16,027 nt of DNA, from the NCBI GenBank assembly GCA_002450295.1, contig DJYX01000090.1, positions 1 through 16,027 on the forward strand, written 5' to 3'. Within the stretch, counting starts at the first letter, position 1. Each line of letters starts with the position of its first letter. Shown here piece by piece: positions 1-14,899 of the stretch. The translations under genes were made by a program, and so were the position numbers. The DNA comes from Deltaproteobacteria bacterium UBA6967 (GTDB lineage Bacteria; SAR324; NAC60-12). A model generated the notes under the pieces. That model saw only the letters and a list, made by a program, of their open reading frames with translations. It ran no database searches and was not told where the DNA came from.

Positions 1-3000
1 TGATCGTTACTGTTGCCGTGTCCGTGATCTCTACACCACTGTGGCTGACTCCACTCATCCTCACATTGAGAGTCTCACTTTCTTCTACATTCGAATCATT
101 GTTGATCGCAATGCTCACTGTCTCTGCCTCTCCAGCACTACCTGAAAAAGTGACCCGCTTTGAGCCCAAGGCTGTGTAGTCACTACCCGCTAAAGCTGAA
201 CCATTGGAGGTCGATACATCCACAGAAAAACCTCCCGACACAGCCCTGTCTAAACGCAGGGTCAGCGTTGCGCTACCAGCATTCTCGGACACACTCACAT
301 CTGCTATCGTCACCGCTGCACTGTCATCGTCGCTGATTGTCAATGTCGTTTTTTGCGTACCTTCCTCAACTGCACTGTTGCCACCTGAGACACCAGCAAT
401 ATCAATGAAGACTGTTTCTGAGTTCTCCACAGTTTTGTCATTTGCAATTGTCAAAATCGCTGTACCGGATTTGCTCCCAGCTGGAATTGTTATCGTATTG
501 CTGGCGATTGAGTAGTCAGTGTCAAGGGTCGCTGTGCCTGATATATTCAGAGTTACCTTAGTATCCTGTGTTGCAACTACATTTTGGATAGCTGTCAAGC
601 TTACTGAACCTGCATTCTCCAAAACAGAGGAGGCTGCAGCATAAAGAGTTACTGTTGGGGCTGCCTCATCATCACTCGTGCTCACTAGTAGACTCTTGCT
701 GGAAAGAACAGCATACTTGATGTCGTTGGTACTGCTTTTGTTGATGGCTATTGCTACCTCACTGCTCACCAACTCATCGCGAATCGGATCATCTACGCCC
801 GTGACGGTGATGGTTTGGGCTTGATTCCAATTGGAAGCGTTGAATGTCAATTCTGATGGATTGACACTTGCCTCAGTATTATCACTAACTGTCACATCAA
901 ACATAACCTGACCCATCGGTTGTGATGCTAATGTGATAGTAAAACTATCTTTGCTTTCTCCAGATGGTAATTTCCATGTTGAATTGCCATTTAAGTTTGA
1001 TTTCAGAGCTCCTGCAGGGCTCCAAGGGTTACCATCAGCTGCATTTTGACTAACAGCAACATATACTAACGCAACACCTTTGTTGCAGTTGCCAGGAATG
1101 TTCGTGGCATCGATGAAGTAAGTTCGATCATCAGCAATAATTTGCTGACCTACCCCAAACAACGACTGGTTTTGTTGGTATAAAGATAGATTGATACCAA
1201 AGAAGTTTTGCCCTGTATTCCAAACGGGTTCGCAGCCAGTCACTTCAACACTGCCAGAAGCCAACGTACCTCCTCCTTCAGAAACTTTTGTTGCTCCATC
1301 AGTCTCAACAATCTTAAATGCAGATATGTCATCGTCCTTAACAGTGACTACGGCCAGTTGATAACCATTCGTACTTGCTCCACTGCCACCAGAGACTTCT
1401 CCTATCGAAATCTTGATTTCTTCTGTATCTTCATCAATCCAGTCTGAAATTACCGCCAGGTTGGTTGTCACCTCACGACTGCCCGCAGGAATGGTCAGTG
1501 AAGAACTCAAAAGTGAATAGTCTGAGTTCAGGACAGCTGTCCCAGAAGTGACTAAGGTCACCGTAGTATCAGCTAATGACGCTACATTCTGAGTCACCGT
1601 CAAGGTCACTTGACCTCCGCCTTCATTCAAGGAGCTAGCAGATGAAGCCAAGCTGACCAGCGGAACCGCCCCATCATCAATTGTGCTCACAGGCAAACTC
1701 TGACTCATCAGCCCATCATACTTCGAATCCAGCGTATCCTGCTTGTTGATTGCAACTTTTACCTCACTGTTGACCAAACCATCACGAATCAAATCATCCT
1801 CACCGTAAACCGTTATCGTCTGCGCTTTATTCCAATTAGAAGTATCAAACCTCAGCAAGGAAGGAGACACTCTGACCTCTGTTACATCGCTAACTTCTAC
1901 CAAGAAGGCCACTTTGCCAGTTGGTTCACTCTTCAGGACAACCGAAATTGTGTCTGTACTACTACCACTCTCGGATACACTCGTACTTCCTCCACTTGCG
2001 GCCACAGTGAATCCAGAAACATCATCGTCGTTGATGCTCACTTCAACTTGATTGCCTCCTGCCTTGGCACCATTGCCACCAGAGACGGAGCTAATCGACA
2101 CCTCAACCTTCTCAACTGCTTCATCAATGTTATCTGAGACTGCCTGAAGAGTAGTTGTCACCTCACGACTGCCCGCAGGAATGGTCAGTGAAGAACTCAA
2201 AAGTGTGTAGTCTGACAGGGTTGCTGTCCCAGCAGTACTCAAGGTCACCTTGGTATCAGTCACAGCCACCACATCCTGCTTCACTGTCAGGGTTGCTTGA
2301 CCACCACTTTCATCCATCGAATTGGCTGACGTAGCCACACTGACAATCGGATTCCCTTCATCATCACTCGTGCTCACCGATATGTTCTTGCTGGAAAGAG
2401 CAGCATACTTGGTGTCGTTCGTACTATTTTTGTTGATGGCTACTGCTATCTCACTTTTCACCAACTCATCACGAATCGGGTCATCTACACCAGACACGGT
2501 GACTGTCTGAGCTTGATTCCAGTTAGATGCATTGAATGTCAACGAAGACTTTGAGACACTAGCCTCCGTACTGTCACTAGCTGTTAGGTCAAACACCACA
2601 TTGCTGGTCGGCTCGGAGCCCAAAACTACCGTGAACGTGTCTTGGCTTCCATCCTCCTCAACAGTGGTTGAACCACCTGATTCATTAATCTTAAAAGCTG
2701 AAGTATCATCATCGTTAATTGTGATGGAAACCTGCTGCGTATCGCTTTCAGTTGCGATTCCCCCGAAAACTCCACTGATATCAAGCACTACTGTTTCTGC
2801 ATCTTCATCAACATAGTCCCCAACACTCTCAAGATTCGTTGTCCCAGTTGTCTTTCCTGCCAGGATAGTAATGGAAGTACTTGAGAGGGTATAGTCTTTA
2901 CTGGGAGTTGCACTACCTGAAGGTTCCATTGTCACGATAGTGTCGCTGTTTGAGACTGCACTGATTGTCGCTGTCAGGACCACTGTTTTTTTATTCTCAT

Positions 3001-5398
3001 CAAGATTGGTTGAGGATGATGCTAGGGTAATGACTGGGGCTGAGTCATTGTCCATGGTTATCAAATTTAGGCTTTGTGGCGGTAGCTTTGCGTAGGCCAG
3101 GTCTGCTGTGCTACTAGTGTTGACCACCAATTTGATCGTTACATTCACACTTTGATCATATATATTGTCATCTACACCAGTGACGGTTACGGTCTTCGCA
3201 GAGTTCCAATCAGAAGTTGTAAAAGTTAGACTTGAAGTAGAGATATGCGCTTCGGTGCTATCATCTGCTGTCAGATCAACAACTACATCACTTGTGGGCT
3301 GTGAACCCAGTTTGACAGTAAATGTATCTGTACTGCCATTCTCGTTAACAAGTGTAGAACCTTCAGTTTCATTGATTTTGATAGCTACTGTGTCATCATC
3401 AGTAATATTCACAGTAGTCTGTTGATTTCCACTTTCAATAGCTCCACTACTACTTGACACCCCACTGATTTCGATCAATATTGTCTCACTTTCTTCTGCT
3501 AATTGATCTGCAATTCCTGTAATTTTAATTGAGCCAGAAGTACTACCTGCAGGGATTGTGATAGTATTGCCAGATAGTGAATAGTCTTGATCTAAATTTG
3601 CTGTTCCTAAAATGCTGAGCTTTACTTCAGTATTACTTTTAAGAATGGTATTGAGGTTGGCTGTTAAGATCACTGAACCCCCGTTCTCTGAAACCAAAGA
3701 TTCGGTATTCGACAATGTCACGAGGGGAGTTGGTTCATTATCATTGTTGGTAACTGCTAAACTTTGAGTCAGAATTCCTAAATAACTGTTATCCTTGTTA
3801 CTTTCCTGATTTACGGACACTAAAACTTTACTACTGATTGCAGAATCGATCTCTTCATCGTCCACACCAGTAATAGTAACTTCTTGTGGAATATTCCAAT
3901 TGGAATTTGTGAAAATTAGTATGGATTCAGAAACTTTAGCTTCTTTAGTATTTTCAGAACTGATATTGAGGACGACATTTTCAGTTGGTTGAGAGCCAAG
4001 AACCACTGTAAAAATTTCTGTATCACCACTTTCAGTCACTACAGCACTACTTTTAGAAAGGCTGAAACCAGCTTGATCATCATCGTTAATTACAAATGAA
4101 GCTTGTTGCTCACCATATTCTTTTGCTCCATTACCTCCAGTAACCTCCTTGATACCAATGATAATTTTTTCATTTTCATCATCTATTTGATCATCAATAT
4201 TCTGAATTTTAGCTGTACTCGTTTTGCTACCAGCAGGAATTGTAACTGTATTGCTTGAGAGTTTATAATCACTACCAAAAGCTGCTGTTCCTGATGTTTC
4301 TAACGTAACAGTTGTATCGGTTCCAGCAGCTAGATCCATTATGAACGAAAGAGTTATTTCCCCACCATTTTCTTCAGCTTCTTCAGCTGAGGCTTTCATT
4401 GAAATGTTAGGTGAAGGCTCGTTATCTGCTGTAGTGGTATTCAGATTCTGACTGGATAATTTGTCGTATGTAGAATCTTTGGTTTTATCTTTATCAACTC
4501 CTACGATTATTGTACTAGAGATTGTGCCATCACTGATTTTATCATCTACTCCTCTTATCGTAACCGTTTGTGCTAGGCTCCAGTTGTCAATTCCAAATCC
4601 AAGTGATGAAGGAGAGGCCGATACTTCACCAGCATCACTGGCAACTACAGAAAGAACGACGTCGCCAATTGGCCCTGAATCTAGTACTACTGTAAAAGTC
4701 TCTGAGTTACCAATTTCTTGAAGAGAAGCATCATTTTTGCTGATCTTAAACCCTGCCGGTATTGTTTCGAAATTTTCTAGTTCAGAACTGACTGCCTGAA
4801 GTTCTTTATCACTAGCCACCTTACCATCCATTCCTTGATCTTCCATAGTACTGTGCAAGTGTTTGAGCGCTGCGGTCGCTGAAATCATTGGCTTCCCCAC
4901 AGCTTCTGTTACAGCAGTGGTTGCATTGTCAAAGGATTCGACTGGGACATCAAAATCAATGGCTTTTCCCTTCAGTGCTGCTTGGGTTGAGGCCTCGATA
5001 TTGATCCCATTGCTTGGATCTCCATCAGCATCCAAGGTCTGCAACAACCGACTCAGATTTATTACTTTTGGATCTGCTGTTCCCGAGGCTCCCATTACCT
5101 CCACCGGAGTCAATTTGGCTGAACCAGTTACACTTCCTAGGGATACATCACCAAGAGTGAAAGAAACTGTATCTCCAGAGTTGTAGTAGAAAGTTCCATT
5201 AGTATCGGTGACTCCTGCCAGACCACTACTGGTAATATAGTTTACCCCAGCTACAGCGCTATCTAAGAAAACTCCAGGACTACCAGCCCGCTCCACAGTA
5301 TCTGCGGTGACAACTTCATCTTCTTGAATAGCACAACTGGAATTGAGTAGAAGCACACATGATAAAAATGTTAGCGCTAGATTTCTAAGCCTGGGCAT
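1..5398 (-). CDS. Giant exported Calx-beta repeat protein (N-terminal 1799 codons, 3' end outside window)
   Basis: One frame stays open from an ATG at 5398 to the window edge. An SD GGAG lies 7 nt before the ATG. Residues 1-22 form a hydrophobic leader ending LLNSSC; the lipobox is imperfect (Asn at -3), so lipoprotein or SPI-cleaved protein are both possible. Residues about 41-95 carry a GVFLDSAV...GVTDTNGTFYY...GDTVSF module seen at the start of many Gram-negative exported repeat proteins. From about residue 210, two domain types alternate six times. Type A has a hallmark NWN.AQTVTV.GVDD. Type B is Calx-beta-like, with SGTA..DY.L, TIPAGS, DE..E and a closing DDD. Periods are about 230 residues. 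A classical Calx-beta domain (SVSENAGSATLTL) follows at the edge. Likely a Ca2+-stabilised surface adhesin or matrix protein; that role is inferred from the family. All other ORFs in this span are antisense shadows. Confidence 0.93.
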   Translation of the reverse strand, partial: MPRLRNLALTFLSCVLLLNSSCAIQEDEVVTADTVERAGSPGVFLDSAVAGVNYITSSGLAGVTDTNGTFYYNSGDTVSFTLGDVSLGSVTGSAKLTPVEVMGASGTADPKVINLSRLLQTLDADGDPSNGINIEASTQAALKGKAIDFDVPVESFDNATTAVTEAVGKPMISATAALKHLHSTMEDQGMDGKVASDKELQAVSSELENFETIPAGFKISKNDASLQEIGNSETFTVVLDSGPIGDVVLSVVASDAGEVSASPSSLGFGIDNWSLAQTVTIRGVDDKISDGTISSTIIVGVDKDKTKDSTYDKLSSQNLNTTTADNEPSPNISMKASAEEAEENGGEITLSFIMDLAAGTDTTVTLETSGTAAFGSDYKLSSNTVTIPAGSKTSTAKIQNIDDQIDDENEKIIIGIKEVTGGNGAKEYGEQQASFVINDDDQAGFSLSKSSAVVTESGDTEIFTVVLGSQPTENVVLNISSENTKEAKVSESILIFTNSNWNIPQEVTITGVDDEEIDSAISSKVLVSVNQESNKDNSYLGILTQSLAVTNNDNEPTPLVTLSNTESLVSENGGSVILTANLNTILKSNTEVKLSILGTANLDQDYSLSGNTITIPAGSTSGSIKITGIADQLAEESETILIEISGVSSSSGAIESGNQQTTVNITDDDTVAIKINETEGSTLVNENGSTDTFTVKLGSQPTSDVVVDLTADDSTEAHISTSSLTFTTSDWNSAKTVTVTGVDDNIYDQSVNVTIKLVVNTSSTADLAYAKLPPQSLNLITMDNDSAPVITLASSSTNLDENKKTVVLTATISAVSNSDTIVTMEPSGSATPSKDYTLSSTSITILAGKTTGTTNLESVGDYVDEDAETVVLDISGVFGGIATESDTQQVSITINDDDTSAFKINESGGSTTVEEDGSQDTFTVVLGSEPTSNVVFDLTASDSTEASVSKSSLTFNASNWNQAQTVTVSGVDDPIRDELVKSEIAVAINKNSTNDTKYAALSSKNISVSTSDDEGNPIVSVATSANSMDESGGQATLTVKQDVVAVTDTKVTLSTAGTATLSDYTLLSSSLTIPAGSREVTTTLQAVSDNIDEAVEKVEVSISSVSGGNGAKAGGNQVEVSINDDDVSGFTVAASGGSTSVSESGSSTDTISVVLKSEPTGKVAFLVEVSDVTEVRVSPSLLRFDTSNWNKAQTITVYGEDDLIRDGLVNSEVKVAINKQDTLDSKYDGLMSQSLPVSTIDDGAVPLVSLASSASSLNEGGGQVTLTVTQNVASLADTTVTLVTSGTAVLNSDYSLLSSSLTIPAGSREVTTNLAVISDWIDEDTEEIKISIGEVSGGSGASTNGYQLAVVTVKDDDISAFKIVETDGATKVSEGGGTLASGSVEVTGCEPVWNTGQNFFGINLSLYQQNQSLFGVGQQIIADDRTYFIDATNIPGNCNKGVALVYVAVSQNAADGNPWSPAGALKSNLNGNSTWKLPSGESKDSFTITLASQPMGQVMFDVTVSDNTEASVNPSELTFNASNWNQAQTITVTGVDDPIRDELVSSEVAIAINKSSTNDIKYAVLSSKSLLVSTSDDEAAPTVTLYAAASSVLENAGSVSLTAIQNVVATQDTKVTLNISGTATLDTDYSIASNTITIPAGSKSGTAILTIANDKTVENSETVFIDIAGVSGGNSAVEEGTQKTTLTISDDDSAAVTIADVSVSENAGSATLTLRLDRAVSGGFSVDVSTSNGSALAGSDYTALGSKRVTFSGSAGEAETVSIAINNDSNVEESETLNVRMSGVSHSGVEITDTATVTI
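960..1285 (-). other. Insertion of about 107 residues inside repeat pair six of the Calx-beta protein
   Basis: Successive DDD repeat ends fall near residues 439, 667, 897, 1123, 1355 and 1692, so spacings are about 230 except for the last, which is about 337. The extra segment sits between the TKVSEGGG start of a type-A domain and its continuation SKDSFTITL. It includes GCEPVWNTG, a Gln/Asn-rich stretch (LYQQNQSLFG), DDRTYFIDATN, GNCNKGVALVYVAV and STWKLPSG. It holds two cysteines; I saw none in the surrounding repeats. It reads as a folded inserted domain in a surface loop, function unknown. Confidence 0.75.
1474..1515. repeat. Exact 42-bp direct repeat, copy 1
   Basis: This segment is identical base for base to 2154-2195, 680 bp away, in the same reading frame. 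It encodes the LLSSSLTIPAGSREVTT strand region of two successive Calx-beta-like domains. Flanking sequence is similar but diverged, so the perfect block suggests recent recombination or gene conversion between repeat units. Confidence 0.95.
2154..2195. repeat. Exact 42-bp direct repeat, copy 2
   Basis: Partner of 1474-1515, identical over 42 bases. Both copies lie in phase within adjacent repeat pairs, so a crossover here would delete or add one whole pair of about 230 residues without a frameshift. Confidence 0.95.
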
Positions 5399-5801: not shown

Positions 5802-6668
5802 TCAGCGCTCAAGAACGTCTTGGATGTCCTTAATGACACCATTGGTCAACGGCACGATGGGTAGGTCGTTGGGGTCATCCCCAAAGGGATCTTCGATCTC
5901 CAGACCAATCTCTTCGATACCCACCAAGGCATAGATGAAGAAGGCCATGATTACCAAAGTCATGTAGCCAAACTGGGGAATCAGGACGAAGGGCAGAGTG
6001 ACGAAATAGATCCCCATGAACACCTTGAGCTGGTTCACATAAGCGAAGGGCAAAGGTGTTTGACGGATTCTCCTCAAAGCATGCGTAGCCGCCTGCAAAT
6101 CGGCAATTGATTGAGCAATCGGATTAAACTCGGAGGGATGCATCCAGCGCTTGCGGACTCCCAACCGTAGCTCCACATTCAGCATACTGAGCAAGCCATT
6201 TAGCTTGTTACTGTGCTGATTCAACCGCTGATGCAGCTGGCCAGTCAGCTTACCCATCGATTTCAGAGTGATTCCATCCCGCAAGTCATCTCGCATCGCC
6301 CCCATGTAGGCCGCCAGTAGCATGCCAATTTGTTGACGGTACTCCTTCTCCTCTTCTGGAATCACTGCATTTGCTTGATTCATCAGGTTGCGGGCTCCAA
6401 TGCATAGTGAACCCAGTTGCTTTCTTCCCTCCCAGTAGCGATCGTAGGAAGTGTTGGTCCGGAAGACCAATAACAACCCGAGCGCGACCCCGACAATAGA
6501 GTGAGCTTGGGAGCTCATCTCGAATCCTAGTCCTGTGAACTCGAAAAATAGGATTAAGGCCAGAGACCACAACATCATTACAAAGACGTAGGGCAACACT
6601 CGTGGAAGCACCGTACCTGTGTAGGCGAAAATGATCTTCAGGCGCTTGTCAGACTGGTAATTAATCAT
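5802..6668 (-). CDS. Bestrophin family (RFP-TM) ion channel
   Basis: The 288-residue product matches bacterial bestrophins in length and signatures. FRTNTSYDRYWEGR near residue 69 follows two N-terminal membrane segments (about 22-45 and 55-70). Another hydrophobic hairpin lies at about 215-255 (KVFMGIYFVTLPFVLIP, YMTLVIMAFFIYALVGIEEIG). The EDPFGDDPNDLP signature lies near the C-terminus at about 262-273. Bestrophins form pentameric inner-membrane channels; bacterial members studied conduct cations and eukaryotic ones conduct anions. The ion carried here cannot be read from sequence. The start ATG at 6668 has only a weak GAGAAG upstream but fits the family N-terminus. The gene stands alone, in the same direction as the Calx-beta gene 403 bp downstream. 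Confidence 0.93.
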   Translation of the reverse strand: MINYQSDKRLKIIFAYTGTVLPRVLPYVFVMMLWSLALILFFEFTGLGFEMSSQAHSIVGVALGLLLVFRTNTSYDRYWEGRKQLGSLCIGARNLMNQANAVIPEEEKEYRQQIGMLLAAYMGAMRDDLRDGITLKSMGKLTGQLHQRLNQHSNKLNGLLSMLNVELRLGVRKRWMHPSEFNPIAQSIADLQAATHALRRIRQTPLPFAYVNQLKVFMGIYFVTLPFVLIPQFGYMTLVIMAFFIYALVGIEEIGLEIEDPFGDDPNDLPIVPLTNGVIKDIQDVLER

Positions 6669-7190
6669 CAGACTTCTCTCAAAGTAAACATCTAGGGCAG
6701 TGAGAATCTTTCTCTATCTAACTCCATGTACAACTGACGCAAGTATAATTTTTTCACAATGAGCAAAATTTTGGCCCATTCATCCTATAAAGAACGCTGA
6801 CCTCAAATTGAATTGTGATCCTTAGAATGGTCTTAAGCTCAGGGAATTCTTAAACTTTCGCCTTTATCAAAGCTTTCCGACAAACATATTCTCATTATCT
6901 TTCGAACGAACCCATCTACTTGTCAACTTCTAGTTTTGGAATATTAGCATAGGAGACTCAACGAGTTTAGACACAAAAACAAAAAATCTGAACTGCTGAG
7001 TGCTTTAATTTTTAATTGTGCCAGGAGGGCTTGTTGACTTCAACCTGTAGGAAAGAAGCGCAGAAGGGGAAGGCCTGGTGCAGCGAATGGATCACAGGCG
7101 ACACCAGTGTCTACAAAAATGAGTTGGGGAGCTATTGAAGATTTTGGATCTGAATAATAATAAGCAGCCAAGGACCATCAGCGGATTGCT
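6669..7190. other. Intergenic region, no convincing gene
   Basis: This is a 522-bp spacer upstream of the bestrophin gene. A TATACT hexamer sits near 6744-6749 on the minus strand without a well-spaced -35. At 7016-7138 (plus) a 40-codon open stretch ends in WCSEWITGDTSVYKNELGSY, but it has no good start or SD and I do not call it a gene. No repeat or RNA gene was recognised. Confidence 0.5.
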
Positions 7191-7298
7191 TCAGCCGATG
7201 TCTGGCACCTCAAGAGCTGTTTCGAGCACACCAAGAATAATAAAGATGGCTACCATGAAGATGAGCCAGATAAAGAAGTTTCTACCGTCATTCATCAT
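7191..7298 (-). CDS. 35-residue single-pass membrane protein, paralog A
   Basis: The product starts MMNDGRNFFIWLIF, continues through a hydrophobic span MVAIFIILGVL, and ends ETALEVPDIG. An SD TAGGAG at 7305-7310 lies 6 nt before the first ATG (7298) or 9 nt before the second (7295). The paralog at 7704-7808 begins at the position of the second Met. Twenty-six of 34 aligned residues are identical between the two, and 11 further codons differ only synonymously, which is strong evidence for selection on protein sequence. The predicted topology is one helix at about residues 8-24 with short polar ends. A TTGACA occurs upstream at 7378-7383 (minus), without a clear -10. I do not recognise the family. 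Small inner-membrane proteins of this size often bind larger complexes, but no partner is evident here. Confidence 0.8.
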   Translation of the reverse strand: MMNDGRNFFIWLIFMVAIFIILGVLETALEVPDIG

Positions 7299-7703
7299 AA
7301 CTGACTCCTACTCTTTTGGATTTGGAGTTGTAGTATGGTGGATTAAGTGCGGCTAGTAGTTACCTATCAGTCAGTAATGTCAAGCGATGGTTTCATAAAA
7401 ATCTACTGCATTGGCTGATTTCACCTTATCTTTAAGACTACAGGCAATTGATTACAAAAGCCCGAAGAGCACATCAACGAACAAAAATACTATTTTTATC
7501 AGTAGCTTATCCATGTAGCGGAATCAATGAAAAGGGCCACAGTGTTCTCAAAGCAGGTTAACTTGAGCAATGGCTACAGAAGCGAAATAAGTGGGACGTG
7601 AGGTCTTGGTGAACCGAAGAACCACAACTCATCGTGAAGTCCAACAAGTTATGGTTCTTGGTGAGTCCGGTAGGATGTTGATTGGGATCTGCGGCGGATT
7701 TAT
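7299..7703. other. Spacer between the two small membrane genes, with a long inverted repeat
   Basis: I see no gene here. AAGAACCACAACT at 7617-7629 pairs with AGTTATGGTTCTT at 7647-7659 over 13 positions, with one wobble, around a 17-nt loop. CTTGGTGA-type sequence flanks both arms. The structure lies downstream of the small membrane gene at 7704-7808 on the minus strand and lacks a T run, so it may be a 3'-end hairpin rather than an intrinsic terminator. Confidence 0.55.
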
Positions 7704-7808
7704 TTAGGAAATATCTGGAACCTCCAGAAGTGTCTCCAGTACTGCGAGTGTGACAAATATTGCGACCATGAAAACGAGCCACACAAAGAAGTTTCTACCT
7801 TCATTCAT
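7704..7808 (-). CDS. 34-residue single-pass membrane protein, paralog B
   Basis: The product begins MNEGRNFFVWLVFMVAIF, continues VTLAVL, and ends ETLLEVPDIS. It is a near-copy of the 35-residue protein encoded at 7191-7298. An SD GGGAG at 7817-7821 lies 8 nt before the ATG. The replacements are mainly I/V, D/E and G/A, as expected of a conserved transmembrane helix with acidic ends, and the Trp and the FMVAIF core are invariant. The two genes point the same way, 405 bp apart, with unrelated spacer sequence, so the duplication is old enough for non-coding DNA to have diverged. The function is unknown. The longer antisense-frame ORFs covering this site are shadows. Confidence 0.82.
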   Translation of the reverse strand: MNEGRNFFVWLVFMVAIFVTLAVLETLLEVPDIS

Positions 7809-7891
7809 AGGTAGTTCTCCCGAGGATTGTTGAGCCAAATCCGCAGAGAATGAAGGAGAAGTAGACTAGCTCCGTTCAGATAAGTTCTCAA

Positions 7892-8050
7892 TTAGCTTGA
7901 TTGGCCTAAAGGCTCCAGCTCTCCCAGGGAGATGTTTCCAGTTCTGCCAACGAAGCAAAAATACAACTCATGCAAACCGATGAATGCGAGTCCTTCTTCT
8001 GTCATTTCTATCTGATGTGATAACGCTTCCTTGCGTGCCAGTAAATCCAT
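7892..8050 (-). CDS. Possible 52-residue protein of unknown function
   Basis: An open frame runs from ATG at 8050 to TAA at 7892. The product starts MDLLARKEALSHQIEM, passes through TEEGLAFIGLHELYFCFVG and ends LGELEPLGQSS. An AGAGG lies 11 nt upstream, longer than ideal. The same frame stays open further upstream (KIIIAPDIAEAKSQ before the Met), so it might instead be the tail of a decayed longer gene. The first part would form an amphipathic helix. It ends 83 nt before the 34-residue membrane gene on the same strand. I do not recognise it, and a chance ORF of this length is not excluded. Confidence 0.33.
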   Translation of the reverse strand: MDLLARKEALSHQIEMTEEGLAFIGLHELYFCFVGRTGNISLGELEPLGQSS

Positions 8051-8082
8051 TTGGGATTTGGCCTCTGCAATATCCGGGGCAA

Positions 8083-8106
8083 TTATGATTTTACTCTAAA
8101 TCATAA
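8083..8106 (-). terminator. Perfect 9-bp hairpin after the barrel-like gene, possible terminator
   Basis: TTATGATTT at 8083-8091 pairs perfectly with AAATCATAA at 8098-8106 around a TACTCT loop. It lies about 118 nt past the stop of the gene at 8224-8880 and just before the possible small ORF on the same strand. The stem is AT-rich and no T tract follows, so termination is only one option; it could also be an operator-like palindrome. Confidence 0.35.
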
Positions 8107-8223: not shown

Positions 8224-8880
8224 TCATAGAAAAGTATAGAACTCAGCACCATACATCTGAAAAGTAGGCTGTTCAGGATTACTATCCCGGTTGACCCCAT
8301 AGATTTTCAATTCGATTGTTTCAAGACTGTATGTAAACCGTAGTCCCCATTTTTTGTCTCTTTTACTGGGATCCTCTAAGGTCAGTGAAAGCCCTCTAGT
8401 GAACTTATTCATTGAATTTTTATACGGATTCCCCGTGGGCGATGTTGTATCTAGAACATACACCTCGGATTGCTTCAATTCTGATTTACAATAGGTATAA
8501 CCAGCATGAAAATTGATAAAGCCCCCTGCACCTAAAATCACTTCTATTCCAGGACCAAACATACATTTCGCATCAATCACGTTTTTAGCATGAAAATTAT
8601 AGTGTTCGAGCAAACCTCGAATTTCGAGTTCTGGTAGAGGACCAGGCTTTACGCGATATCCAGCAAAAAATTTGTAGCTATTTTTCTTCAGTGTTACTTC
8701 ATTTGTCGTATTGTCATTCACAGGATCTATGCTTTCAAACTTCGTATCGTAGTCTAGCATATCAATTTTATTGAACGCCAATCCTTCACTGTAAGAAAAC
8801 CCTATGATTTGATCAGCCCCTTGAGTTGTAGATACCGACATAATCAGCACGATCAAAATGTTCAACCAGAAACTGATCAA
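8224..8880 (-). CDS. Exported protein, possibly a small outer-membrane beta-barrel
   Basis: The 218-residue product opens with a hydrophobic leader (NILIVLIMSVSTTQGA) that fits a signal peptide cleaved near residue 22. It lacks the usual basic residues at the very N-terminus. The mature part alternates polar and hydrophobic residues in strand-like stretches such as SYKFFAGYRV, FINFHAGYTYC and WGLRFTYSLETIEL, and ends in the aromatic-rich FYTFL. That pattern and size suit an eight-stranded barrel, but no family signature is recognised. Two cysteines are present (KCMF, YCK). The start is a TTG at 8880 with an A-rich leader and no proper SD; a TAG stop four codons upstream in frame prevents any useful extension. 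It is a single gene with no obvious operon partner. Confidence 0.62.
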   Translation of the reverse strand: MISFWLNILIVLIMSVSTTQGADQIIGFSYSEGLAFNKIDMLDYDTKFESIDPVNDNTTNEVTLKKNSYKFFAGYRVKPGPLPELEIRGLLEHYNFHAKNVIDAKCMFGPGIEVILGAGGFINFHAGYTYCKSELKQSEVYVLDTTSPTGNPYKNSMNKFTRGLSLTLEDPSKRDKKWGLRFTYSLETIELKIYGVNRDSNPEQPTFQMYGAEFYTFL

Positions 8881-13014: not shown

Positions 13015-13260
13015 ACCACTGCTCTCGATTTTCACCTGCAAAGCCCAATAGTTTACTCATTGTAAGTATAATTTCTGTGGCTTGCTTCCCCCACCTAATC
13101 AATCACAACATCTGCACAGAGCACTGACCGGTGATTTTGGCTGGATCGAGAGGCTTGACTTCAGATACCTATAGTCATTAAAGTTAGTCTCGACTACTTA
13201 GTTGGCATCTGGTCTTGCTTTGCTGACTTGTTGCTCAATTTTTTAAAGATAAGTAACACT

Positions 13261-13767
13261 ATGAAAAAGATACTTTCTGCGCTGATTGGCTTTGGCTTGT
13301 TGGCATCCCCAGCTTTTGCACAAAAAATTCCCGTGGAGGGATGGTTTAAAGGCACTAATACCAAAGTTGGAGAGATGTGGAGAGATTCTGGTAGAAGAAA
13401 ACACTTTGTCAGTGCTAAATCCACTGGTGAGATAACTTTGTATGGTGAAGGCTTTGGCTTTAAGGGGAAAGCTGAGTCTGATTGGGGACTTGCCATGCTT
13501 GATGACTATGGAAATGGTCGTATAGTCACAAAAGAAACTTGGACAGCAGAAAAGGATTCAACTGTTCAATTCAGAGGACACGCAAGTTGCGAACTTACTT
13601 CAGCTTCGACAACCTGTGTGATGTGGTTCAAGGGATATAATCAGTATGAAGGAAAGATCTTGGAACTGACTTTCAACGAAAAAGATGCTGCTGAAAACGA
13701 AAAGGATGAAAATCCAAACTTGTATATGCTTGAAGGCATTGTGATGGATGAGCCAAGCACTGAATAA
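13261..13767 (+). CDS. Secreted two-cysteine protein, tandem family copy 1
   Basis: The 168-residue precursor has a textbook signal peptide, MKKILSALIGFGLLASPAFA, cut before QKIPVEGW. I start at ATG 13261 rather than an upstream in-frame TTG because the KK-hydrophobic-AFA layout then fits exactly; no strong SD is visible. The mature part of about 148 residues has repeated W/Y/F-G motifs (MWRDSGRR, LYGEGFGFKGK, FKGYNQYEGKILEL) and two cysteines, Cys110 and Cys119, that probably form a disulfide in the periplasm. It ends LYMLEGIVMDEP. Beta-rich composition is likely. I do not recognise the family. Two paralogs follow directly in the same direction, the first of them broken. Confidence 0.85.
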   Translation: MKKILSALIGFGLLASPAFAQKIPVEGWFKGTNTKVGEMWRDSGRRKHFVSAKSTGEITLYGEGFGFKGKAESDWGLAMLDDYGNGRIVTKETWTAEKDSTVQFRGHASCELTSASTTCVMWFKGYNQYEGKILELTFNEKDAAENEKDENPNLYMLEGIVMDEPSTE

Positions 13768-13860
13768 TTTCCAAAACACAGTTCTGTACATCTGAATTCA
13801 AAACAATGATAAGCCAGAATCACATGAAAACAATCATCTTAAGCCTGATCATAGTTAACC
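13762..13860. repeat. Tandem-duplication junction, copy 1 (99 bp)
   Basis: From the GAATAA stop of copy 1, through the spacer, to the signal-peptide codons of copy 2, this segment matches 14325-14423 at 92 of 99 positions by my count, without gaps. The offset of 563 bp is the duplication unit. The spacer, identical except for single bases, shows that the gene plus its leader was duplicated. Confidence 0.9.
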
Positions 13861-14330
13861 TCTTTGCTTTACCAATTTTTGCTGAAAAAATCCCTGTGGA
13901 AGGGTGGTACAAATCTACTGGTAGTGAGTTTGGTGAAAAGTGGAGAGATTCAGGCAGGAGAACCCATTTTTTCTCGGTAAAAGGAACCGCTTAAGTTACC
14001 ATTTATGGAGAAGGTTTTGGTTTCAAGGGTAAAGCAGAGAGTGACTGGGCACCTTCTATCTTCGACAAATATGTCAACGGTTCAATTGTTTCACGTACTG
14101 TTTGGACTTCTGAAAAAGACACGATATCCGGCTTTAAAGGGCATCAACGTTGTGATTTAACGGGTGGATCAACCTCATGTGTAATGTGGTTTAAAGGCTT
14201 TGGGGAATTCGAAGGAAAAATTCTTGAACTCAATTTCAATGAAAAAGATGCAGTTGAAACGGATGAAAAAGAAGGACCAAACCTGTATATACTTGAAGGA
14301 GCCTTCATGGATGAGCCAAACGCCGAATAA
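13806..14330 (+). pseudogene. Secreted two-cysteine protein, tandem family copy 2, interrupted by one stop codon
   Basis: Reading from ATG 13806 (or ATG 13824, which matches the start of copy 1) gives a signal peptide ending LPIFAEKIPVEGW, then RDSGRRTHFFSVKGTA, then TAA at 13992-13994. The frame continues without another stop or shift to TAA 14328-14330 and is fully homologous: VTIYGEGFGFKGK, RCDLTGGSTSCVMWFKG, GKILELNFNEKD, MDEPNAE. The paralogs have Glu at the stop position (GAG or GAA), so a single G-to-T change explains it. Everything else is preserved, so inactivation is very recent, or the stop is a sequencing error, a phase-variable state or read through. The start follows copy 1 by 38 nt. 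Confidence 0.85.
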
Positions 14331-14423
14331 TTTCCAAAACACAGTTCTGTACATCTGAATCCAAAACAATGATAAGTCAGAATCACATAAAAAAAGTCAT
14401 CTTAAGCCTGATCGTAGTTAGCC
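14325..14423. repeat. Tandem-duplication junction, copy 2 (99 bp)
   Basis: Partner of 13762-13860. The seven differences include the ATG-to-ATA change that removes the inner start codon present in copy 2, leaving the outer ATG at 14369 as the only ATG start for copy 3. Confidence 0.9.
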
Positions 14424-14899
14424 TTATAGTTCCATCTATCTTTGCTGAGAGAATTCCAGTTGATGGCTGGGCTAAATCAATTGGGAAGGCTCAATTTGGA
14501 GATAGTTGGAAAGATTCTGGGCAAAGAACCCACTACGTTTCAGCAAAAAGTATTGGAGAAATATCCATTTACGGTGAGAGTTTTGGTTTCAAGGGTAAAT
14601 CGGAATCAGAATGGAGTTTGAGTTTTCATGACAAACACATCAATGGACGGATAATATCTAAAACCACATGGACATCAGAGAAGAATCCTTCATCAAAATT
14701 TAGAGGTCATGGAATTTGCGATCTTACGGCAGGAGCTGCTACTTGTGTAAGTTGGTTGAAAGGCTACGGTGAGTATGATGGAAAAATTCTAGAACTTACC
14801 AGAAACGAAAGTGCTTCAGCTTCCAGAGAAAATGATGATAGTTCTGGACCTAACTTATACAAATTAGAAGGTATCGTGATGGATGAACCCGAGCCGTAA
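14369..14899 (+). CDS. Secreted two-cysteine protein, tandem family copy 3
   Basis: The 176-residue precursor starts MISQNHIKKVILSL; its signal peptide ends VPSIFA before ERIPVDGW. The mature chain keeps all family blocks: WKDSGQRTHYVSAK, IYGESFGFKGKSESEW, TWTSEK, FRGHGICDLT with Cys117, ATCVSWLKGYGEYDGKILEL with Cys126, and LYKLEGIVMDEP. A Ser/Asp/Glu-rich insert (SASASRENDDSSG) lengthens the loop before the last strand. No SD precedes the ATG; the start lies 38 nt after the stop of copy 2, so expression may depend on the upstream transcript. It is an unrecognised periplasmic or secreted family. A copy of the dispersed repeat begins about 28 nt downstream. Confidence 0.83.
   Translation: MISQNHIKKVILSLIVVSLIVPSIFAERIPVDGWAKSIGKAQFGDSWKDSGQRTHYVSAKSIGEISIYGESFGFKGKSESEWSLSFHDKHINGRIISKTTWTSEKNPSSKFRGHGICDLTAGAATCVSWLKGYGEYDGKILELTRNESASASRENDDSSGPNLYKLEGIVMDEPEP

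Follow-up and report, generated by a model that had tools for sequence, protein, structure and literature searches.

A family of predicted single-helix membrane micro-proteins in a SAR324 genus, with copies on phage contigs

Two paralogous small ORFs and their locus

The window analysed here, a 16,027-nt stretch of the Deltaproteobacteria bacterium UBA6967 assembly (contig DJYX01000090.1), carries two very short paralogous open reading frames on its minus strand. ORF A (7191..7298, minus) comprises 35 codons plus a stop and encodes 34 aa when counted from its conserved second Met at 7295, MNDGRNFFIWLIFMVAIFIILGVLETALEVPDIG. ORF B (7704..7808, minus) comprises 34 codons plus a stop, MNEGRNFFVWLVFMVAIFVTLAVLETLLEVPDIS; the ORF list gives it as a TTG-started version of 44 aa, and its 34 aa are counted here from the ATG at 7808. 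Each ORF is present in all six genomes of the genus, a SAR324 lineage whose genomes we label G000 to G005. The codon preceding the second Met of A is not ATG in three of the six (G002, G004 and G005), which marks that Met as the conserved start, and the frame of B is closed 6 codons (G004) and 4 codons (G005) upstream of its ATG. Shine-Dalgarno-like sites read from the sequence precede both ORFs: AGGAG (7305..7309, minus) before A is kept in the six-genome alignment, and GGGAG (7817..7821, minus) before B is kept there with small changes. The pair is flanked by a bestrophin-family gene (5802-6668; Pfam Bestrophin_2) on one side and by an ORF without Pfam match (8224-8880) on the other.

An earlier note on this window had described two paralogous membrane proteins of 34/35 residues within 7191..7808, each with a good Shine-Dalgarno sequence, and had counted 26 of 34 residues as identical, with 11 further codons changed only synonymously. 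The positions and sites hold, and the count is exact on recount (15 identical plus 11 synonymous-only codons). The same note saw no similarity between the spacers, and the repeat search agrees: between 6700 and 8300 it reported a single direct repeat of 14 nt or more, a 124-nt pair (7172-7295 and 7685-7808; 73% identity) that corresponds to the two ORFs plus 19 nt beyond their 3′ ends, so that the spacers are otherwise unrelated. Its view that such genes are invisible to gene length cut-offs is true only in part, because members do appear in some sources as hypothetical proteins.

Sequence variation among the six genus genomes falls largely on third codon positions. Variable sites by codon position number 1/0/18 in A (binomial P 3e-8) and 2/2/18 in B (binomial P 4e-6), P values that are indicative only because the sequences are related. 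Over 15 genome pairs, pS and pN are 0.375 and 0.004 for A and 0.329 and 0.013 for B; differences in both ORFs are thus mostly synonymous. When the same three genomes are used, omega is 0.018 for the bestrophin gene, 0.041 for A and 0 for B, and two yardstick genes gave 0.069 (ADH-like, five genomes) and 0.198 (aldose-epimerase-like by our own reading, three genomes). The values for A and B lie near that of bestrophin, indicating that they are held about as tightly as this conserved neighbour, not more. Constraint is looser in other groups of the family than in A and B. Their omega values are 0.126 (H), 0.165 (I), 0.172 (J) and 0.261 (D); pN/pS reaches 0.148 in E and 0.087 in C, the latter estimated from only 8 differences, and the third-position excess is weak for E (P 0.03) and absent for C (P 0.8). 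These substitution patterns, far outside what chance would give, show A and B to be coding sequences under purifying selection, presumably translated in the cell. The earlier note had proposed selection on a micro-protein from the A/B comparison; homologs in 6/6 genus genomes and a synonymous bias that runs through orthologs, the paralogs A and B and a phage copy bear this out.

Conserved DNA also surrounds the two ORFs. Upstream of A, the element CTTGACATTACTGAC (7370..7384, minus) may represent a -35 region or a regulator site. Its core, TTGACATTACTGA, lies about 75 nt upstream and is conserved in 6/6 genomes; when eight genomes were searched with at most one mismatch, the element matched once, at A, in each of five genus genomes, and a reversed control pattern gave one match. 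No sigma-70 consensus promoter was found upstream of A, and the search for an upstream motif common to the paralogs yielded nothing beyond 8-9 nt words in three groups. B is preceded by a single-copy block of 118 nt (7967..8084, minus) whose frame is interrupted in some genomes; its identity is 81-91% in 4/4 other genus genomes among the eight searched, and the mean pairwise identity over 15 pairs is 0.82. Downstream of B, inverted arms recognised by eye (7617-7629, aagaaccacaact; 7648-7660, agttatggttctt) are largely kept in the six-genome alignment, without a T-run after them.

Family extent, helix face and gene neighbours

A 27-row profile run against 52 phylum genomes located the family, at E<=0.001, in the six genus genomes alone, with 44 matches there and none in the other 46. 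Forty-three of these lie at E<=2e-5, including one with two stops (G003:C309), and the 44th is a partial match; the 43 copies are distributed as 9, 6, 11, 5, 7 and 5 over G000 to G005, and we sorted the copies by flanks and sequence into about 12 groups of our own definition. A 13-row profile run on 116 genomes gave matches below E 0.005 only in the six genus genomes (best elsewhere E 0.007). A search of the window's own genome returned nine matches at E<=10, and a two-peptide-pattern scan of the species genomes, possibly excluding the window's own genome, produced 70 stretches, eight of them relatives, in four MAGs. Protein clusters yielded 130 matches at E<=10 among 303 candidates; the 120 listed all have E<=1.9e-8, and the W-13-LE motif occurs in 115 of the 120.

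Reference databases gave no match above cut-off. Among five members, Pfam came closest with Babuvirus_MP, hit by B at E 8e-4 and 19.7 bits where the cut-off is 27 (Pfam lists reach E 10, though filters drop most matches above 0.1). NCBIfam (27 members, best E 0.038), PHROGs (three members, best E 0.076) and a PDB profile search (best E 1.5) were likewise empty above cut-off, and PADLOC gave no match for 27 members. The earlier note had not recognised the family either, and together these searches support A and B as members of a real, so far unrecognised protein family. In the SAR324 literature, we found no paper on small or transmembrane proteins or on hypothetical or small ORFs, and nothing wider is claimed. 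Few parts of bacterial genomes are as poorly annotated as small membrane proteins.

AlphaFold predicts one helix spanning residues 4-28 (mean pLDDT 91.8), and the best 19-residue hydropathy is 1.9-3.0 in 11/11 members tested, consistent with the single transmembrane helix proposed earlier. Net charge, for 11 members tested, is -3 in A, B, F and the phage copy, -2 in E, I and J, -1 in C and 0 in G, H and K. The most conserved positions are W11, L22, L25, E26, L29, V31 and P32; in weighted sequences, the Trp is present in 97%, E26 in 92%, E30 in 67% and D33 in 16%. The conserved Trp of the earlier note is therefore retained and its invariant acidic tail is not, the tail being across paralogs a V-P with variable charge. 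Over residues 8-29, conservation rises and falls with helical periodicity, peaking at 99 degrees (119 sequences, effective 14.8), at a permutation P of only 0.027 on related sequences. The conserved side of the helix runs F8-W11-M15-I18-L22-E26-L29. Such a periodic face is the pattern expected of a helix that docks on a partner; it lends support to the binding partner suggested in the earlier note, with the partner itself still putative.

The flanking genes vary by group and include bestrophin, MFS, ADH-like, methyltransferase, amino-acid ABC transport and pentapeptide proteins. Pentapeptide-repeat ORFs, recognised by a simple pattern of our own, lie within 1 kb of 11 of the 28 members examined (28 of 43; random mean 4.5, P 0.001), a count in which orthologous loci are repeated and three loci, C/D, G and H, are independent. 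Pfam confirmed the repeats in the three ORFs tested. These proteins stand beside C/D, G and H (L050:7036-7683, L040:2406-3371, L042:7417-7869 and orthologous places), and no A or B copy has one within 1 kb; they may be partners, or their recurrence may simply reflect how abundant such proteins are in these genomes. Copy G in G002 also has a caspase-domain protein beside it (Peptidase_C14, L040:996-1850; Pfam E 9e-19, PADLOC E 2e-11), the only clear PADLOC match among 10 neighbour proteins, two others being weak (E 3e-4 and 8e-4). Gene neighbourhood thus pointed to no single partner, pentapeptide ORFs recurring near C/D, G and H and never near A or B. Because A and B have neither a pentapeptide-repeat nor a caspase neighbour, these genes leave our weighing of the functional readings unaltered.

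The copies of groups H, I and J are embedded in a duplicated unit, roughly 350 nt long, that also takes in related sequence on the 5′ and the 3′ side of the ORF. Directly after the stop, an element of about 100 nt can fold (stretches L097, L098, L052, L044, L091, L042, L049, L056, L087 and L092). A search with the 3′ flank in 12 genomes gave 20 matches; eight of them, counting the query itself, have E<=1e-5, and each of these eight immediately follows a family ORF. Mean nucleotide identity of element versus ORF is 0.71 vs 0.51 for H-J, 0.79 vs 0.48 for I-J and 0.70 vs 0.70 for H-I, with three of 14 rows left out. The fold is branched, with 24 pairs and 86.7% of cells paired over 12 sequences. 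Covariation is modest: three pairs changed on both sides, a number reached by 224 of 500 shuffles, and 4 of the 500 attained the covariation score. Folds of individual sequences are unremarkable (z -0.9 to -1.9). Rfam gave no match in six sources. Candidate roles for the element are regulatory RNA, terminator and boundary of the duplicated unit.

Elsewhere in the family, individual copies appear to be decaying: the G003 copy mentioned above (G003:C309 4586-4684) has two in-frame stops, and copy D in G002 (G002:C253 2165-2266) has lost both the Trp and the Glu.

Copies on phage contigs and a candidate host

Family members of two phage types occur on five IMG/VR contigs. The first, MNDARNFLIWLVFMVVIFVLLAVLETILEVPDI, emerged from a scan of viral contigs on a 146.5-kb contig that encodes a T4-type DNA polymerase, UvsX, a DnaB-like helicase, an SbcC-like nuclease subunit, a baseplate wedge and tail fibre proteins, genes from which we read it as a T4-type phage; the same 10-kb stretch of the contig holds iscU and purL/Q/M-like genes (the pur names are our reading). 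The second type, MKDGKNLVLWLFFMIVTFTVLAILETVLEVPDI, came from a profile search of 84 loci, made up of 80 retained from the 148 that IscU had located and four stretches of the first phage; this search placed it on three contigs, and a pattern scan supplied one more. Three of these four contigs are >99.9% identical over 9.7 kb, and the fourth has an identical peptide. Elsewhere, a search of 50,697 phage records gave one 11-residue match at chance level (E 3), viral scans of 78 and 6 stretches gave no relative, and those of 70 and 4 stretches (one of the 4 followed) gave none beyond the contig already found. A test with the PF07068 phage major capsid profile was uninformative, as its controls rang nowhere.

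Both phage types share a gene row of 140-143, 53-57, 28-29, 33 and 109-111 aa, with start/stop overlaps at most junctions of the small genes and, in the second type, one base between the 28-aa and 33-aa genes. The two tiny hydrophobic proteins that precede the micro-protein (53-57 and 28-29 aa; L216 11355-11617, L217 11351-11595) had no convincing relative in 30 SAR324-phylum genomes, the best match (E 0.004) lying inside a 262-residue frame.

The two phage micro-proteins are 61% identical to each other. The first shares 26 of 33 residues (79%) with host B, and its codons divide into 8 identical, 18 synonymous-only and 7 replaced. Together with the third-position bias in A and B, these synonymous host-phage differences contradict a reading as chance ORFs. 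GC3 of this copy is 21%, versus 38-62% in the host copies counted, a difference suggesting that the gene has long been resident in the phage, with its protein sequence maintained. A short tree (36 columns, support unexamined) places the phage copies among the host A, B and F proteins, which hints at a host origin. The phage micro-protein lies inside a phage genome, is homologous to a bacterial gene and is under selection, the marks of an auxiliary gene. Host-like auxiliary genes of marine T4-like phages include iscU, as described in the iscU account of PMC5332604; here, too, a host-type gene lies near iscU in a T4-type phage, but auxiliary iscU encodes a metabolic protein and the present gene a 33-residue membrane protein without assigned role.

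The phage IscU is 81-82% identical to that of the genus itself and 76-82% identical over 14 SAR324-phylum genomes; in plasmid records it reaches 75% at best, and Vibrio and E. coli stand at 73-75% among the matches listed. An identical IscU is found on 45 contigs and an identical micro-protein on 10, the longest contig being 157,813 bp for both. The micro-protein and the IscU identity point to SAR324 as the phage host. Other proteins at 82-94% identity nevertheless outrank the single SAR324-named row in the IscU match list, and in the tree published in PMC5332604 the IscU proteins of six marine phages fall with those of gammaproteobacteria, one of the six near SAR86, which makes SAR324 a likely candidate and no firmer than that. 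The available portion of PMC11694666 mentions SAR324 virus links and contains nothing on the micro-protein family.

Possible roles of the family

We consider it about an even chance that the family consists of stand-alone, single-pass membrane accessory proteins that dock on a partner, exist as several isoforms and have been borrowed by phages. A and B would be two isoforms of an inner-membrane protein whose residues 4-28 form the membrane-crossing helix. The positive-inside rule would place the N-terminus, which carries Arg, in the cytoplasm and the LExxLxVP tail outside. The helix-face stripe of near-invariant Trp, Leu and Glu would dock on a larger membrane partner or a second copy. Because the copies lie apart and beside different genes, the isoforms could be made under different conditions. 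In the T4-type phage and its relative, the copy retained in a compact gene row probably serves to tune the same membrane machinery in infected cells. The proposal fits the purifying selection on A and B, the 43 matches in 6/6 genomes, the single helix with its periodic face, the differing flanks of the groups and the motif and gene row kept by the phage copies. Against it stand a constraint on A and B no higher than on bestrophin, the decayed look of some copies, the recurrence of one neighbour type (pentapeptide-repeat ORFs, at three independent loci), the borderline periodicity of related sequences and a partner that is so far only postulated.

A more specific form of the accessory-protein proposal, which we put forward tentatively as a lesser possibility, is that each genome holds a toolkit of 5-11 micro-proteins that all fit one shared docking site on a single membrane machine, which T4-like phages would retune in infection by means of a version of their own. 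This would be a counterpart of hli outside photosynthesis; cyanophages carry hli genes. Like the present family, the Hli/Hlip proteins of cyanobacteria and cyanophages are single-helix, occur in several copies per host genome and are found on T4-like marine phages. They differ in their ExxNGRxAMxGF chlorophyll motif, which by eye is absent here, in the lack of a Pfam match for the five members searched, and in their hosts, which are cyanobacteria and not SAR324.

It seems unlikely, on present evidence, that the micro-proteins are instead small structural subunits of a membrane complex, with condition-specific isoforms, one of them contributed by the phage so that the complex goes on working. 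The near-invariant Trp and Glu on one face, the tight constraint on A and the two core copies in 6/6 genomes would suit such a subunit. Examples are CydX of cytochrome bd and the small subunits found in cbb3 oxidase or in photosystems. Among these, CydX/YbgT and its counterparts in other oxidases resemble the family in being about 35 residues long, in having one helix, and in a conserved Trp towards one end with a Glu towards the other. In contrast to these, the family has many dispersed copies and no Pfam match (five members), and neither NCBIfam nor PDB linked it to known small subunits. No gene for such a complex was seen among the neighbour proteins scanned with Pfam, nor was cydAB or another oxidase gene adjacent among the window and neighbour proteins scanned, a part of all the copies' neighbours. 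Such complexes are moreover widespread, whereas the family is found in 6 of 52 phylum genomes, all of one genus.

We regard as improbable a type I-like toxin, that is, a hydrophobic peptide damaging the inner membrane and checked by antisense RNA. Known type I toxins are mostly basic, and the net charge of -3 in A, B, F and the phage copy speaks against this, although C, G, H and K (-1 to 0 among the 11 members tested) are not strongly acidic. Small size, hydrophobicity, multiple copies, tandem pairs in intergenic space and the foldable 3′ element directly after the stop in H, I and J recall the type I toxins Ldr, Ibs, TisB and DinQ (the last the subject of PMC3567139), small single-helix membrane peptides that are multi-copy, intergenic and in some cases tandem. 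Unlike them, the family has a conserved helix face, acidic A, B and phage proteins, A and B copies that keep their place across six genomes, and phages that carry and keep a copy; no toxin or antitoxin family was matched in Pfam (five members, listed to E 10) or in Rfam (six sources).

Slightly less probable still, in our judgement, is an anti-phage or superinfection-immunity factor, with host and phage copies acting on phage entry or lysis. Its attraction is that the family occurs in both the host genus and phages, that the phage copy sits in a row of small membrane proteins, and that the protein beside copy G is of a caspase-domain type also found in defence systems. The purifying selection on two core copies argues the other way, as do the 27 members without PADLOC match and the 10 neighbour proteins among which only the caspase is clear. 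That there is no functional protein at all, only conserved DNA with a chance frame or mobile-element debris, is hardly credible: broken copies such as that in G003 and the duplicated H/I/J unit are set against the third-position bias in A and B, the synonymous host-phage differences and the 120 listed homologs at E<=1.9e-8.

Returning to the accessory-protein proposal, carriage by phages suggests that the family does something worth controlling during infection. Because the family unites orthologs, paralogs and phage copies, sequence comparison is enough to show a likely docking face. Should the phages retain their copy for infection, the partner would be host machinery of this ocean lineage over which phages need control.

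Two further features of the window were recorded. At 2-5398 (minus) lies a very large Calx-beta-rich protein cut by the window edge, with eight Calx-beta stretches and a weaker LapA match. At 13228-14899 there are three tandem paralogs with a KIPVEGW or RIPVDGW motif, the middle ORF being short (62 aa); the one tested has no Pfam match above cut-off, and a relative of these paralogs lies in G002 on the contig that carries a J copy (G002:C277).
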